The notes under the pieces were generated by a model, which worked only from the letters and a program-made list of their open reading frames with translations, was not told where the DNA came from and did no database searches. The position numbers and the translations under genes are program-made. 64,000 bases of DNA, taken from positions 4,960,001-5,024,000 of the forward strand of contig NZ_CP014546.1 in the NCBI RefSeq assembly GCF_001579805.1, read 5' to 3'. Positions 60,001 through 64,000 of this stretch are shown in pieces. The stretch comes from Pseudomonas azotoformans. GTDB lineage: Bacteria > Pseudomonadota > Gammaproteobacteria > Pseudomonadales > Pseudomonadaceae. The stretch's first letter is position 1; each line of letters opens with the position of its first letter.

Positions 60001-60612
60001 ATGTTGACGATCTTCTTTTACGCAGTGGTATTCGGTTTTGTGTTCTGCCTCTCACCCGGCGCGGTGTTGGCAGAGACTTTGCGCCGTGGCTTGCTGCACG
60101 GCTTCACACCGGCCCTGCTGGTGCAGTTTGGCTCACTGGTGGGCGATGCGGTGTGGGCAGTGATCGGCCTGACCGGGATCGCTTTGCTGATCCAACATGA
60201 TGCCGTGCGCGTGCCGCTGACGGTGGTCTGTGCGGTGTACCTGGCCTGGCTCGGCATTCGCAGCCTGATCGACGCCTGGAAGCTACCTGAGTCAGACGAT
60301 GCACCCGCCAGCACTCGGCAAAACGCACTGGCCACCGGGGCGGCGATCTCCCTGGCCAACCCGAAAAACATTGTTTACTGGGGCGCGTTGGGCAGCGCGT
60401 TGTCGGGCATCGTCGGCACCACGCCCAGCCACGGGCAGACGCTGATGTTCTTTGCTGGGTTCATGCTCGCGTCGGTGTTGTCGTGCTTTCTGATCGCGGG
60501 GCTGGTCAATATGTTGCGCCAGAACGCGTCACCGTTGTGGCAACGTATCAGTTATGGCACCTGTGGCGTGGTATTGATCTATCTGGCCGTTCTGGCCGCA
60601 CAGGGTATCTAA
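60001..60612 (+). CDS. LysE family amino-acid exporter
   Basis: 203 aa with six predicted helices. SPGAVLAETLRRGLLHGFTPALLVQFGSLVGDAVWA and LANPKNIVYWGALG are LysE/RhtB signatures. GAAGGA precedes the ATG at 60001. It is downstream of an AraC regulator, suggesting inducible export of an amino acid or analogue. Substrate unknown. Confidence 0.88.
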   Translation: MLTIFFYAVVFGFVFCLSPGAVLAETLRRGLLHGFTPALLVQFGSLVGDAVWAVIGLTGIALLIQHDAVRVPLTVVCAVYLAWLGIRSLIDAWKLPESDDAPASTRQNALATGAAISLANPKNIVYWGALGSALSGIVGTTPSHGQTLMFFAGFMLASVLSCFLIAGLVNMLRQNASPLWQRISYGTCGVVLIYLAVLAAQGI

Positions 60613-60689
60613 AGTTATATACCCACTAACTTTCGAATGCCGATTATCTGAATGAACTCTGAACACCGGACAATTTAATTAATCATGCG

Positions 60690-60718
60690 TTGACATTTTG
60701 TAACCGTCTGAGTAGATT
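60690..60718 (+). promoter_or_regulatory. Strong sigma-70-like promoter of the mgtA leader
   Basis: Perfect TTGACA (60690-60695), 17-bp spacer, TAGATT (60713-60718). It lies in the 318-bp gap 60613-60930, before three upstream ORFs and mgtA, giving a leader of about 735 nt. Confidence 0.6.
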
Positions 60719-60766
60719 GCCCGTGCCTGCAACTGGGGCCTTTTTTAAACCTCACAAAAGAAGCCA

Positions 60767-60862
60767 ATGGACACAGTATCTAGTCGCTGTCCGAGCACCG
60801 CTTACGCGGGCATCGGGCGCCAAACCCAGAATATGACAGGACTCGCCTCCCCGGTCCGGTAA
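60767..60862 (+). CDS. Possible 31-aa upstream ORF in the mgtA leader
   Basis: ATG with AAAGAAGCC upstream, then MDTVSSRCPSTAYAG... to a TAA at 60860-60862. It starts about 45 bases after the predicted transcription start. It may be a leader peptide. Coding evidence is only the ribosome site, the position and the open frame. Confidence 0.4.
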   Translation: MDTVSSRCPSTAYAGIGRQTQNMTGLASPVR

Positions 60863-60930
60863 GCTGCGCTAGAGCTCGATGCTCCACCGTAACTGCCTCG
60901 CCGGTCGCCTGTCCGGTCCCGAGGTGTGTT

Positions 60931-61224
60931 ATGACCTTCCAAGCCTTTGTTTTGCCTGATGTACGCACACTAGCGGCCGCCCTGCGCGCCAAGCTGTGCC
61001 GTGAGCCCGTAGGCTTTTCCCCTACCCGCTCAGCGTTTGCTGCACCCTCCCCTCAAGTGCGCCCGGCCTACCCGCTGGCGCATTGGCGTATCTGCCCGGA
61101 AAGCGGCCAACTGGTGCAGCACTGGGATCACGCCGACCCTCAAGACCCGCAGAGACCCAAGGTTTCCAGCCTGGCACAGGCCAGCTTGATGCTCGGTCTT
61201 TATGTGAGCGCTCGCGCCGCCTGA
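60931..61224 (+). CDS. 97-aa hypothetical protein in the mgtA leader
   Basis: ATG preceded by CCGAGGTGTGTT, a good ribosome site. It opens MTFQAFVLPDVRTLAAALRAK and contains a Pro-rich middle (FSPTRSAFAAPSPQVRPAYP) and the motif HWRICPESGQLVQHW. No signal peptide or membrane helix is clear. Proline-rich leader ORFs that sense translation speed are known before mgtA and mgtC in enterobacteria. Whether this one is a leader or a stable protein is open. It is followed by a second short ORF and mgtA. Confidence 0.6.
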   Translation: MTFQAFVLPDVRTLAAALRAKLCREPVGFSPTRSAFAAPSPQVRPAYPLAHWRICPESGQLVQHWDHADPQDPQRPKVSSLAQASLMLGLYVSARAA

Positions 61225-61270
61225 CCCGGCTGGAAACAGCAACTTCCTGATCCCTATTCTGGAGTTCTTT

Positions 61271-61309
61271 ATGAACACGTCCAGTAGTAGCCCGCTGCGC
61301 GCTAGTTAA
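61271..61309 (+). CDS. Possible 12-aa leader peptide of mgtA
   Basis: ATTCTGGAGTTCTTT provides a ribosome site for ATG at 61271. The peptide is MNTSSSSPLRAS, and its stop falls in the loop of the hairpin 61290-61329. This is the arrangement of translation-dependent attenuators. Confidence 0.5.
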   Translation: MNTSSSSPLRAS

Positions 61310-61329
61310 CTAACGCGCTGTAAGCGGGC
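61290..61329 (+). promoter_or_regulatory. Strong hairpin overlapping the leader peptide end
   Basis: Outer arms GCCCGCT (61290-61296) and AGCGGGC (61323-61329); inner arms GCGCGCTAGTT and AACTAACGCGC with one mismatch. No U-tract follows directly, so it may act through Rho or by masking, not as an intrinsic terminator. A second small dyad TGTCG/CGACA at 61430-61447 abuts the mgtA ribosome site. Confidence 0.6.
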
Positions 61330-61459
61330 GATATAGAAGTTATGTGAACACCTTATTTAAACCGATCGCGAAGTTAGCGACTCGGCATGCTTTCGCTCGC
61401 CTGTCTTCAGGTAAGTACTGGGTATGTTTTGTCGAAAATTGGCGACAGGAGTACAGACA

Positions 61460-64000
61460 ATGAGCGCCGTAAAAAACCCGCCTCTGCACAAAAAGAATGG
61501 CACCGACGCCGACACCAAACTGTCGATGCGTGCCGCCCGCGAAGCCCACAACGGCCTGTCGGCCACCCTGGCGAACGTACGTGCCACCCAGGACGGCTTG
61601 ACCGAACTGGACGCCTCCGCTCGCCTGCAACGCGAAGGCTACAACGAAGTCGCCCACGACAAGCCGCCTCACGCCATCGTCCAGTTCCTGCAGGCACTGA
61701 ATAACCCCTTTATCTACGTGCTGCTGACACTGGCCGGTATCAGTTTCTTCACCGACTGCTGGCTGCCGATGCAGGAAGGCGAAGACGCCGACCCGACCAA
61801 AGTCATCATCATCATGACCATGGTGCTGCTCAGCAGCCTGTTGCGCTTCTGGCAGGAACACCGTTCGGCTAAATCTGCCGAAGCCCTGAAAGCCATGGTT
61901 CGCACCACGGCCACCGTGTTGCGCCGTGAGCAGGTAGGTTCGCAACCGACCCTGCGCGAAGTGCCGATGCGCGAATTGGTGGCCGGCGATATCGTGCAGC
62001 TGTCGGCCGGCGACATGATCCCGGCGGACATCCGCCTGATCGAATCCCGCGACCTGTTCATCAGCCAGGCCGTGCTGACCGGCGAAGCCTTGCCGGTGGA
62101 AAAGTACGACACCCTGGGTAATGTCACGCAGAAATCCGCCGGACCGGTGGTGGCCGACCAGGGCAACCTGCTGGACCTGCCGAACATTTGCTTCATGGGC
62201 ACCAACGTGGTCAGTGGCCGTGCAAAAGCGGTGGTAGTCGCCACCGGGCCGCGCACCTACTTTGGCTCCCTGGCCAAGGCAATTGTCGGTTCGCGGGTGC
62301 AAACCGCGTTCGACCGCGGGGTAAACAGCGTCAGCTGGTTGCTGATCCGTTTCATGCTGGTGATGGTGCCGATCGTGTTCCTGCTCAACGGCTTCTCCAA
62401 GGGCGACTGGGGCGATGCCTTCCTGTTTGCCCTGGCGGTGGCCGTCGGCCTCACCCCGGAAATGCTGCCGATGATCGTCAGCGCCAACCTGGCCAAGGGC
62501 GCCACCGCCATGGCCAAGCGCAAAGTGGTGGTCAAGCGCCTCAACGCAATCCAGAACTTTGGTTCGATGGACGTGCTGTGCACCGACAAGACCGGCACCC
62601 TGACCCAGGACAAGATCATCCTCGAACATCACGTCAACGCCTTTGGTCAACGTGATGATGCGGTGCTGTCCCTGGCCTGGCTCAACAGCCATCACCAGAG
62701 CGGCATGAAGAACCTGATGGACCAGGCGGTGGTGGAGTTTTCGGAGCAGAACCCGAAGTTCAAGGTGCCGTTCGCCTACAGCAAGATCGATGAATTGCCG
62801 TTCGACTTCGTGCGTCGTCGCCTGTCGATCGTGGTCAAGGATGCCGCCGACGACCAACTGCTGGTGTGCAAAGGCGCTGTGGAAGAGATGCTGAGCATTT
62901 CCACTCACGTCATGGAGGCCGGCGCCGCCGTGCCGCTGGATGATCGTCGCCGTGAAGAACTGCTCGCGATTGCCAACGACTATAACGAAGACGGGTTCCG
63001 TGTGCTGGTGGTCGCCACCCGCCACATTCCTAAATCCATGGCACGTCAGCAGTACACCACTGCCGATGAGCGCAACCTGGTGATCCAGGGCTTCCTGACC
63101 TTCCTTGATCCACCGAAGGAAACTGCCGGCCCTGCGATTGCGGCACTGCAACAGATCGGCGTGGCGATCAAGGTACTGACCGGCGACAACGCCGTGGTCA
63201 CCAGCAAGATCTGCCGCCAGGTCGGTCTCGATCCAGGCCAGCCGCTGCTGGGGGCTGAAATCGAAGCCATGGACGACGCCACGCTGCTGCGCCGTGTGGA
63301 AGAACGCACCGTGTTCGCCAAGCTGACACCGCTGCAGAAGTCACGCGTGCTCAAGGCGCTGCAAGCCAACGGCCACACTGTGGGTTTCCTGGGTGATGGG
63401 ATCAACGATGCACCGGCACTGCGCGACGCCGACGTGGGTATCTCGGTCGACACGGCCACCGATATCGCCAAGGAATCGGCCGACATCATCCTGCTGGAAA
63501 AGAGCCTGATGGTGCTGGAAGAAGGCGTGCTCAAGGGCCGCGAAACCTTCGGTAATATCATGAAGTACCTGAACATGACCGCCAGCTCCAACTTCGGCAA
63601 CGTGTTCTCGGTGCTGGTGGCCAGTGCATTCATCCCATTCCTGCCGATGCTGTCGATTCACCTGTTGCTGCAGAACCTGATGTACGACATCTCCCAGCTG
63701 GCTTTGCCGTGGGACAAGATGGACAAGGAGTACCTGGCCAAGCCGCGTAAGTGGGATGCGAAGAACATCGGCCGGTTCATGATCTGGATCGGGCCGACCT
63801 CGTCGATCTTCGACATCACCACCTTTGCGCTGATGTGGTTCGTGTTCGCGGCCAACAGTGTGGAAGTGCAGACCCTGTTCCAGTCCGGCTGGTTCATCGA
63901 GGGGCTGCTCTCGCAAACCCTGGTCGTGCACATGCTGCGGACCCGCAAGATCCCGTTCTTCCAGAGCACCGCCGCGTGGCCGGTGTTGATGATGACCTGT
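61460..64000 (+). CDS. mgtA: Magnesium-translocating P-type ATPase (3' partial)
   Basis: 847 codons are present; the frame is open at the window end and about 50 residues are missing. ATG follows GACAGGAGTACAGACA. Motifs: actuator loop TGEALPV, phosphorylated Asp in CTDKTGTLT (about residue 376), hinge GDGINDAPALRDADVG and C-terminal helices LPMLSIHLLLQNLMYDISQ typical of MgtA/MgtB. It imports Mg2+ across the inner membrane under Mg2+ shortage. The leader in front suggests control by translation of small ORFs, as in enterobacteria. Confidence 0.95.
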   Translation, partial: MSAVKNPPLHKKNGTDADTKLSMRAAREAHNGLSATLANVRATQDGLTELDASARLQREGYNEVAHDKPPHAIVQFLQALNNPFIYVLLTLAGISFFTDCWLPMQEGEDADPTKVIIIMTMVLLSSLLRFWQEHRSAKSAEALKAMVRTTATVLRREQVGSQPTLREVPMRELVAGDIVQLSAGDMIPADIRLIESRDLFISQAVLTGEALPVEKYDTLGNVTQKSAGPVVADQGNLLDLPNICFMGTNVVSGRAKAVVVATGPRTYFGSLAKAIVGSRVQTAFDRGVNSVSWLLIRFMLVMVPIVFLLNGFSKGDWGDAFLFALAVAVGLTPEMLPMIVSANLAKGATAMAKRKVVVKRLNAIQNFGSMDVLCTDKTGTLTQDKIILEHHVNAFGQRDDAVLSLAWLNSHHQSGMKNLMDQAVVEFSEQNPKFKVPFAYSKIDELPFDFVRRRLSIVVKDAADDQLLVCKGAVEEMLSISTHVMEAGAAVPLDDRRREELLAIANDYNEDGFRVLVVATRHIPKSMARQQYTTADERNLVIQGFLTFLDPPKETAGPAIAALQQIGVAIKVLTGDNAVVTSKICRQVGLDPGQPLLGAEIEAMDDATLLRRVEERTVFAKLTPLQKSRVLKALQANGHTVGFLGDGINDAPALRDADVGISVDTATDIAKESADIILLEKSLMVLEEGVLKGRETFGNIMKYLNMTASSNFGNVFSVLVASAFIPFLPMLSIHLLLQNLMYDISQLALPWDKMDKEYLAKPRKWDAKNIGRFMIWIGPTSSIFDITTFALMWFVFAANSVEVQTLFQSGWFIEGLLSQTLVVHMLRTRKIPFFQSTAAWPVLMMTC

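Follow-up and report, generated by a model that had tools for sequence, protein, structure and literature searches.

Among the described leaders of Mg2+ transport genes, Rfam holds a family for enterobacterial mgtA (Mg2+-II), and the Salmonella mgtCBR leader uses two short open reading frames (ORFs), mgtM and mgtP, together with RNA folding, with transcription as its output. The enterobacterial mgtA leader encodes MgtL, and in the available passages of PMC11282234 ribosomes are described as falling off at an early EPDP motif at low Mg2+, with the RNA refolding away from a Rho site. For Pseudomonas, the available parts of PMC11218974 report that Mg2+ supply affects polymyxin susceptibility, that mgtA matters in competition with fungi and that Mg2+ supplementation altered the expression of the P. 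aeruginosa genes PA4824-PA4826, mgtA (PA4825) included; transposon insertions in PA4826 lowered co-culture fitness, whereas deletion of PA4826 did not and deletion of mgtA did, and in these parts the three are described as genes only and the sole leader named is that of Salmonella. Another transcriptome, in the passages available, found PA4824, PA4825 and PA4826 decreased together (PMC7044273). Our study concerns the leader of mgtA in a 64,000-nucleotide (nt) stretch of the Pseudomonas azotoformans genome (assembly GCF_001579805.1, contig NZ_CP014546.1, positions 4,960,001 to 5,024,000; hereafter, the window) and in related genomes. A literature search, with subscription papers mostly outside its scope, found among the matches listed no description of the Pseudomonas mgtA leader, of a riboswitch at PA4825 or PA4826, or of this layout, as a previous sequence-only reading of the window had supposed; the available passages of a survey of 104 RNAs (PMC2864571) and of a riboswitch review (PMC7266159) do not mention mgtA.

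Our study revealed a leader that is well supported as a conserved, structured, multi-ORF element tied to mgtA, and that appears to comprise two RNA modules with mutually exclusive folds able to hide or expose ribosome sites. Sequence comparison shows the promoter, the length range of the first short ORF (uORF1), selection on the 97-amino acid (aa) leader protein (ORF2), the alternative pairings of module 1 (helices A and B), the covarying folds of module 2 and the link to mgtA (Table 1). The sequence-only reading had proposed a three-ORF control system; a conserved, structured, multi-ORF leader is indeed present, but what characterizes it most is less the three ORFs as such than two RNA switches by which ribosome sites are concealed. 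In both modules, one strand has two exclusive, evolutionarily kept pairings, one of them covering a ribosome site, which is the arrangement that marks a translational RNA switch. Conservation across Pseudomonas, set beforehand as the test of the earlier proposal, was strong, and covariation exceeded that of all 500 shuffles in both modules. Mean identity over 250 random species pairs was 80% for module 1 and 77% for the first 300 nt of mgtA, and 60% for ORF2 and 61% for the DNA upstream.

Module 1 is 183 nt long, and comparison across copies shows exclusive A/B pairings within it. In helix A, the shared strand pairs with GGUAAGCUGCG (or its equivalents) just upstream; its partner in helix B is the start region of ORF2, ribosome site and AUG together. 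The three strands co-change between clades, reading GGCAAGC / GCUUGCC / GGCAAGC in the putida type, GGUuGAG / CUCACC / GGUGAG in the P. aeruginosa type and GGCGAGCCACG / CGUGGCUUGCC / GGCAAGCCAUG (= GGCGAGCC/GGCUUGCC/GGCAAGCC) at locus L142. In local folds of the 111 distinct copies, the ORF2 ribosome site was paired with a mean probability of 0.95, none being below 0.5, and the AUG was paired (>0.5) in 109, the exceptions being L177 and L090. Duplex energies were near-equal (111 copies), with means of -9.5 kcal/mol for helix A and -9.6 kcal/mol for helix B. In a swap test with fixed windows, helix A gave -9.27 for native and -8.88 (sd 0.16) for swapped strands, with 2/200 swaps as low, and helix B gave -9.79 against -8.36 (sd 0.20), with 0/200 as low. 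The covariation scores of the two nested structures were 0.213 and 0.187, and those of slid versions 0.04-0.15. On alignment A3, which holds 52 of the 111 distinct elements, the A-state structure had 8 pairs with double changes against 5.3 in shuffles (24/500), a modest excess given by shuffles that leave the relatedness of copies in place.

The 31-aa ORF of the sequence-only reading, uORF1, has a conserved start and rough length, but its peptide and exact length are not conserved. A frame of 25-39 codons was present in 111/111 distinct copies, with its stop 46-80 nt upstream of the next ATG; ATGGACA is both the uORF1 start and the anchor by which copies were located, and the chance of a 25-39-aa frame was 0.17-0.19 per sequence in shuffles of five copies, the copies being related rather than independent. 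The N-terminus was MDTVSSRC in 75 of the 111 and MDTVSRRC in 22, and the start MD[ST]... was kept in two P. aeruginosa-type loci despite differing nucleotides. Towards the C-terminus the frame switches between clades and the peptide is not conserved, the endings falling in differing frames (CARA 43, FQVR 11, RARA 11, SPVR 9, others). In 67/111 copies the stop fell after the left strand of helix A and before the shared strand, in 36 (the window included) it was inside or touching the left strand, and in 8 it preceded that strand; a ribosome at this stop, with an assumed footprint of -18 to +14, would cover at least half of the left strand in 107/111. The conserved property of uORF1 is the place at which a ribosome would stop.

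Covariance model R1, built from 40 copies of module 1, found the element in 114 of 398 Pseudomonas genomes, once per genome except for one marginal second match (E 0.005). There were 92 strong matches and 22 divergent copies, the latter in genomes without a clear ORF2 relative; 21 of the 22 also precede mgtA and the last, L121:300-700, is a decayed locus in which module 1 breaks off after helix P4, ORF2 is missing and mgtA survives only as a remnant. Once L045 and L047 (split ORF2), L121 and the repeat fetches L145 and L146 had been dropped, 114 loci with 111 distinct elements were available. The mgtA gene (E<=1e-60) occurred in 117/398 genomes, and module 1 and mgtA together in 112. Five genomes had mgtA only. 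One of these, G003, does carry module 1 (L147), which the fast filter missed; G134 and G278 have lost the leader (L148 and L149, where mgtA is kept, neither module 1 nor ORF2 was seen and a hairpin-like stretch remains at the mgtA ribosome site); and in G195 and G068 the match is a 54-55% identical paralogue with a different leader. These paralogue leaders (L150:1100-1480 and L151:1080-1450) are alike, carry a GTG-started short ORF (GTGGGTACTTGTTCGAGTGACAG...) and had no Rfam match up to E 0.5. Two genomes had the element only, G279 (decayed) and G354; at L059 and L152, module 1 and ORF2 were present and no mgtA was found within about 8 kb downstream. A second model of module 1, R2, matched in 46 of 398 genomes sampled from the family, two of them outside the genus (G511, E 2e-5, and G523, E 3e-4), where both copies precede mgtA, and 390 genomes sampled from the order gave three matches, of which two were within the genus and the third was marginal, covering 53 nt (E 0.008); the filters of these family- and order-level searches were strict, and weak matches were lost. 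A 24-mer from module 1 was found in 111 stretches of named species genomes, and all 80 listed were Pseudomonas.

The 97-aa ORF of the sequence-only reading, ORF2, proved to belong to a conserved family, and codon comparison shows coding selection: the median ratio of nonsynonymous to synonymous substitution rates (dN/dS) was 0.41, with dN<dS in 99% of the 2118 pairs with dS 0.15-1.2 drawn from 87 sequences that reach 70 codons, the comparison value for the first 250 codons of mgtA being 0.20. Relatives of ORF2 were found in 92/398 genomes of the genus at E<=6e-6 and in 115 at E<=0.01, and a protein search gave 120 homologues; no Pfam domain was found in the ORF2 protein of the window. In 88 of the first 90 loci ORF2 is followed by mgtA in the same orientation at a distance of 176-305 nt. 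Of the remaining two, L090 is truncated by the end of its contig, and L059 showed no mgtA in an additional 6 kb of downstream sequence either. The alignment displays a conserved core, W-R-x-C-P-x-[ST]-G-x-L...D-x-Q-[DE]-P-[PQ]. The shortest member has 36 aa and the longest 104 aa, and at two loci ORF2 is split or frameshifted. Putida-type ORF2 is mostly recognizable just by an acidic/proline tail such as DDSREPPSR or LEPPSR, in several directly before the stop; ORF2 of L142 is without this tail. The AlphaFold model, from 56 sequences, was poor (mean predicted local distance difference test score (pLDDT) 63.9, predicted template modelling score 0.23), except that the core was modelled as a beta hairpin, with a mean pLDDT of 86 over residues 51-60. 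The ORF2 protein of G511 shares 99% identity with one from P. paraeruginosa and 78% with one from P. aeruginosa, and therefore the family probably corresponds to PA4826 in P. aeruginosa.

Module 2 appears to repeat the logic of module 1, with a third short ORF (ORF3), a covarying hairpin (H3) and a strand shared by an upstream partner and the mgtA ribosome site. Among the 88 loci with an ORF3-like start, ORF3 was 40-46 aa long in 54, 11-12 aa in 32 and 74 aa in 2; the search pattern missed 20/108 loci, and L023, L059 and L090 gave no mgtA start. The long form ends 41-53 nt upstream of mgtA, and the short form is found in the relatives of the window and a few others. The 12-aa ORF ending in a hairpin, as the sequence-only reading had it, is present but is only this short form, and as a peptide it is not conserved at that exact length. 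On alignment A5, which holds 37 of 54 eligible long-ORF3 loci and none with a short ORF3 as in the window, H3, helix A' and the core of the mgtA hairpin were paired in 97.7% of cells (slid versions 23-50%) and 15/22 pairs had double changes (shuffled mean 6.3, 0/500 as high). In the same loci H3 was paired in 99% of cells, with 8/11 pairs changed on both sides, as were 5/7 pairs of helix A'. The A' strand pairs alternatively with the mgtA ribosome site (helix B') in 93.7% of cells, with 13 double-change cells against 2.6 in shuffles (0/500), the number of pair types not being above shuffles. At alignment column 166, the shared strand has C in place of U in 7 rows; of these 7, six carry G at partner 122 and five carry G at partner 189. 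The mgtA ribosome site was paired with a mean probability of 0.65, exceeding 0.5 in 96/108 loci, and the second dyad that the earlier reading placed there is present as a predicted stem.

Two candidate features near ORF3 were rejected: a reading in frame with the 39-aa ORF, as the ORF3 ATG at 61271 is out of frame, and an ATGA overlap of ORF3 with mgtA as a signal, which is trivial (108/108 loci) because mgtA codon 2 begins with A. R2 gave a weak full-length match to module 2 at L048:1505-1709 (E 0.0043 in 217 kb of 70 loci), hinting at duplication of a module. The uORF1, ORF3 and ORF2 tail sequences share an S-R / PPSR-like pattern (ORF3 of L177 is MDEPPSR), which could be a repeated stalling motif.

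Table 1. Features of the mgtA leader and its surroundings, in window coordinates
Feature	Position	Strand	Basis or remark
Sigma-70-type promoter TTGACA-17-TAGATT	TTGACA 60690-60695, 17-nt spacer, TAGATT 60713-60718	+	
5' hairpin and T run at expected transcription start	60725..60746	+	alignment; weak in window, -4.7 kcal/mol
Module 1, structured RNA	60751..60933	+	match of covariance models R1 and R2; reaches ORF2 start codon
uORF1, 31 aa in window, 25-39 aa elsewhere	60767..60862	+	stop inside left strand of helix A
Helix P2 (GUCCGA/UCGGGC) with inner hairpin	60789..60818	+	95.6% of cells paired, 3/7 pairs changed on both sides
Helix P3 (ACUCG/CCGGU)	60841..60860	+	one mismatch in window's clade; 92.6% of cells paired, 2/6 pairs changed on both sides
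Helix A, left strand	60858..60868	+	pairing here would free the ORF2 ribosome site
Helix P4, between both strands of helix A	60872..60884	+	98.1% of cells paired, mostly invariant
26-aa ORF overlapping the 97-aa ORF	60879-60959		
Shared strand	60888..60897	+	pairs in helix A or helix B
Helix B, right strand	60921..60933	+	ribosome site GAGG and ORF2 start codon
ORF2, 97-aa leader protein	60931..61224	+	
ORF3, 12 aa in window	61271..61309	+	ORF3-like start in 88/108 loci
Hairpin H3, extended in window by TAGTTAACTAA palindrome	61290..61329	+	ORF3 stop inside
39-aa GTG ORF	61344-61463		protein-level matches in many close relatives
Helix A' (GGCAUGC 61384-61390 + GGUAUGU 61421-61427)	61384..61427	+	read by eye in window
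Hairpin holding mgtA ribosome site (AGGAG 61447-61451)	61422..61454	+	local fold, predicted stem
mgtA, P-type Mg2+ importer	61460..64000, continues beyond window end	+	Pfam E1-E2_ATPase, Cation_ATPase_N/C

We give about an even chance to a leader working in two stages, where ribosomes translating short ORFs select the RNA fold and mgtA is on when Mg2+ is scarce. If uORF1 were read to its stop, the ribosome would sit on or beside the left strand of helix A, and the shared strand would close helix B over the ORF2 start, leaving the system off; if ribosomes failed on uORF1, helix A would form and the ORF2 ribosome site would be open. Module 2 would repeat this gating, with ORF3 as input and mgtA as output, and module 2 would receive the signal through translation of ORF2, which may block Rho. 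Low Mg2+ would weaken translation and so turn mgtA on. The position of ribosomes on uORF1 and ORF3 is likely to be the input of such serial translational gating. The setting of the switch by ribosomes, the role of Mg2+ as signal and the connection of ORF2 to module 2 are inferred; Mg2+ is named because the gene is mgtA and because of the published P. aeruginosa Mg2+ data.

Several observations weigh against this two-stage leader. uORF1, which ends in clade-dependent frames, has neither an EPDP motif nor a proline run like those of MgtL. Its start region is conserved even at third codon positions, as would be expected of an aptamer rather than of an ordinary coding frame. The effect of swapping on helix A in fixed windows was modest; a larger gap (-10.0 vs -7.7) came from stretches picked for pairing with their own partner, a biased comparison superseded by the fixed-window test. 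The double-change pairs of the B-state structure on A3 were not above shuffles (6 vs 4.8, 134/500), and slid versions of it reached 8. MAFFT misplaces helix B in A3 (58% of cells), and helix B was for this reason assessed copy by copy. Whole-element folds favoured B in 86/111 copies and A in 25/111. Furthermore, the C>G richness of ORF2 barely exceeded that of the mgtA start (0.24 vs 0.22, higher in 64/97 loci), which is a weak sign of a Rho site.

The main rival of a switch set by ribosomes is direct binding of Mg2+, or of another ligand, by module 1 as a riboswitch, with uORF1 incidental or accessory; we consider this unlikely, but less so than the other alternatives. The aptamer would consist of the strand around the uORF1 start, P2, P3 and a possible CUAG/CUAG contact, with A/B as an exclusive expression platform, a part that is present. 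The 35-nt strand around the uORF1 ATG was 90% identical over 250 random pairs, third codon positions included. This near-absence of change at third positions shows RNA-level constraint as well, the main argument for an aptamer. The long-range CUAG contact is tentative: read by eye, its pairing is kept as CCAG/CUGG in L143 and as UUAG/CUAA in L142 and L147, but one mismatch interrupts it in copies of the putida type and in some further ones (L063), and L083 has two mismatches. Also against a riboswitch stands the frame of 25-39 codons that opens at the uORF1 ATG in every distinct copy, even the two nucleotide-diverged P. aeruginosa-type copies.

It is improbable, in our view, that the leader structures simply set the level of ORF2 as a small protein with a function of its own, such as partnering or regulating MgtA, with mgtA co-transcribed. 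The dN/dS of ORF2 and its conserved core with a predicted beta hairpin would fit such a role, but the structural model is of low confidence overall, the length varies widely, copies are broken at two loci, and deletion of PA4826, the probable counterpart, had no co-culture fitness effect in the available passages of PMC11218974. Similarly improbable is an attenuator acting at transcription only (Rho or intrinsic), with the pairings working on RNA polymerase or Rho and not on translation starts: one C-rich stretch in the ORF2 of the window ranks among the top 0.5% of 80-nt windows (a maximum reached by 6.8% of 294-nt segments) and enterobacterial mgtA uses Rho (PMC11282234, available passages), but helix B lies over the ORF2 ribosome site in 111/111 copies and over its AUG in 109, helix B' lies over the mgtA ribosome site, both of which point to translation, and no terminator-like site was found on the + strand of 60100-61700. 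These explanations overlap, and the likelihoods attached to them and to the two-stage leader need not sum to one.

Around the two modules, the promoter and the leader of about 735 nt described by the sequence-only reading were confirmed on the sequence, with an expected transcription start near 60725 and the mgtA ATG at 61460. A scan of 60100-61700 detected this promoter as the sole sigma-70-type site; that nothing sigma-70-like was detected downstream of it is not proof, but gives no sign of the separate mgtA start that would have spoken against the earlier proposal. TTGAC and a -10-like hexamer (a loose rule, at least 3 of 6 matching) stand upstream of uORF1 in 111/111 distinct copies, with a spacer of 17 nt in 97 and 16 nt in 14. 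A LysE-type exporter gene upstream of the leader ends at 60612, and the window covers the first 2.5 kb of mgtA. The direct repeat TCTGAAtgaacTCTGAAC at 60647-60664, upstream of the promoter, is present in many relatives of the window and is a possible activator site. The open length of the 39-aa GTG frame differs among loci; this ORF, the 26-aa ORF and the structured RNA of module 1 come in addition to the features listed by the sequence-only reading. No Rfam 15 family matched the window at gathering scores, and for the leader (60650-61480) cmscan up to E 10 gave three matches only, all far below the cut-offs and none an M-box; no M-box or Mg2+ leader family was found in 8 further loci (up to E 1) or in 7 loci (up to E 0.5). 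The sole Rfam matches at other loci were prophage antisense RNAs at L071:488-676, where a C4 antisense RNA, its a1/b1 targets and an isrK-like match below threshold share a 3.3-kb stretch with the mgtA leader.

In summary, we tentatively propose, with somewhat less confidence than for the two-stage mechanism, a double-gated Pseudomonadaceae mgtA leader made of two related serial modules, perhaps duplicated, joined by a fast-evolving PA4826-family protein, which would form a new class of Mg2+-sensing RNA evolved apart from the M-box and MgtL. If true, the same importer would have a third RNA/ORF arrangement, unrelated to the other two; this would show that mgtA leaders evolve repeatedly, and would explain a gene annotated only as hypothetical beside mgtA. 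The mechanism lends itself to direct testing, since a single strand has two alternative partners. Like the M-box (ykoK, Mg2+-I), the leader is a structured RNA upstream of a Mg2+ transport gene, the M-box being about 200 nt, but it has no M-box match and contains a conserved ORF. It does not match the Mg2+-II family in Rfam, and the mgtCBR leader differs in controlling another gene and in finding no Rfam counterpart here. The PA4826-PA4825(mgtA)-PA4824 region of P. aeruginosa is inferred to be the same locus, as L177 and L178 carry uORF1, the A/B switch, an ORF2 relative, ORF3 and mgtA. The closest likeness is to the E. coli/Salmonella mgtA leader with MgtL, where a long leader of the same importer gene holds a short ORF whose translation decides the RNA fold, and the ORF3 of the L177 lineage (MDEPPSR) may contain a motif related to MgtL. 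In contrast to the MgtL system, the Pseudomonas uORF1 is without EPDP, exclusive folds would hide the ribosome sites of two serial ORFs, and the leader has an additional 36-104-aa protein and a second ORF-plus-switch module by mgtA.

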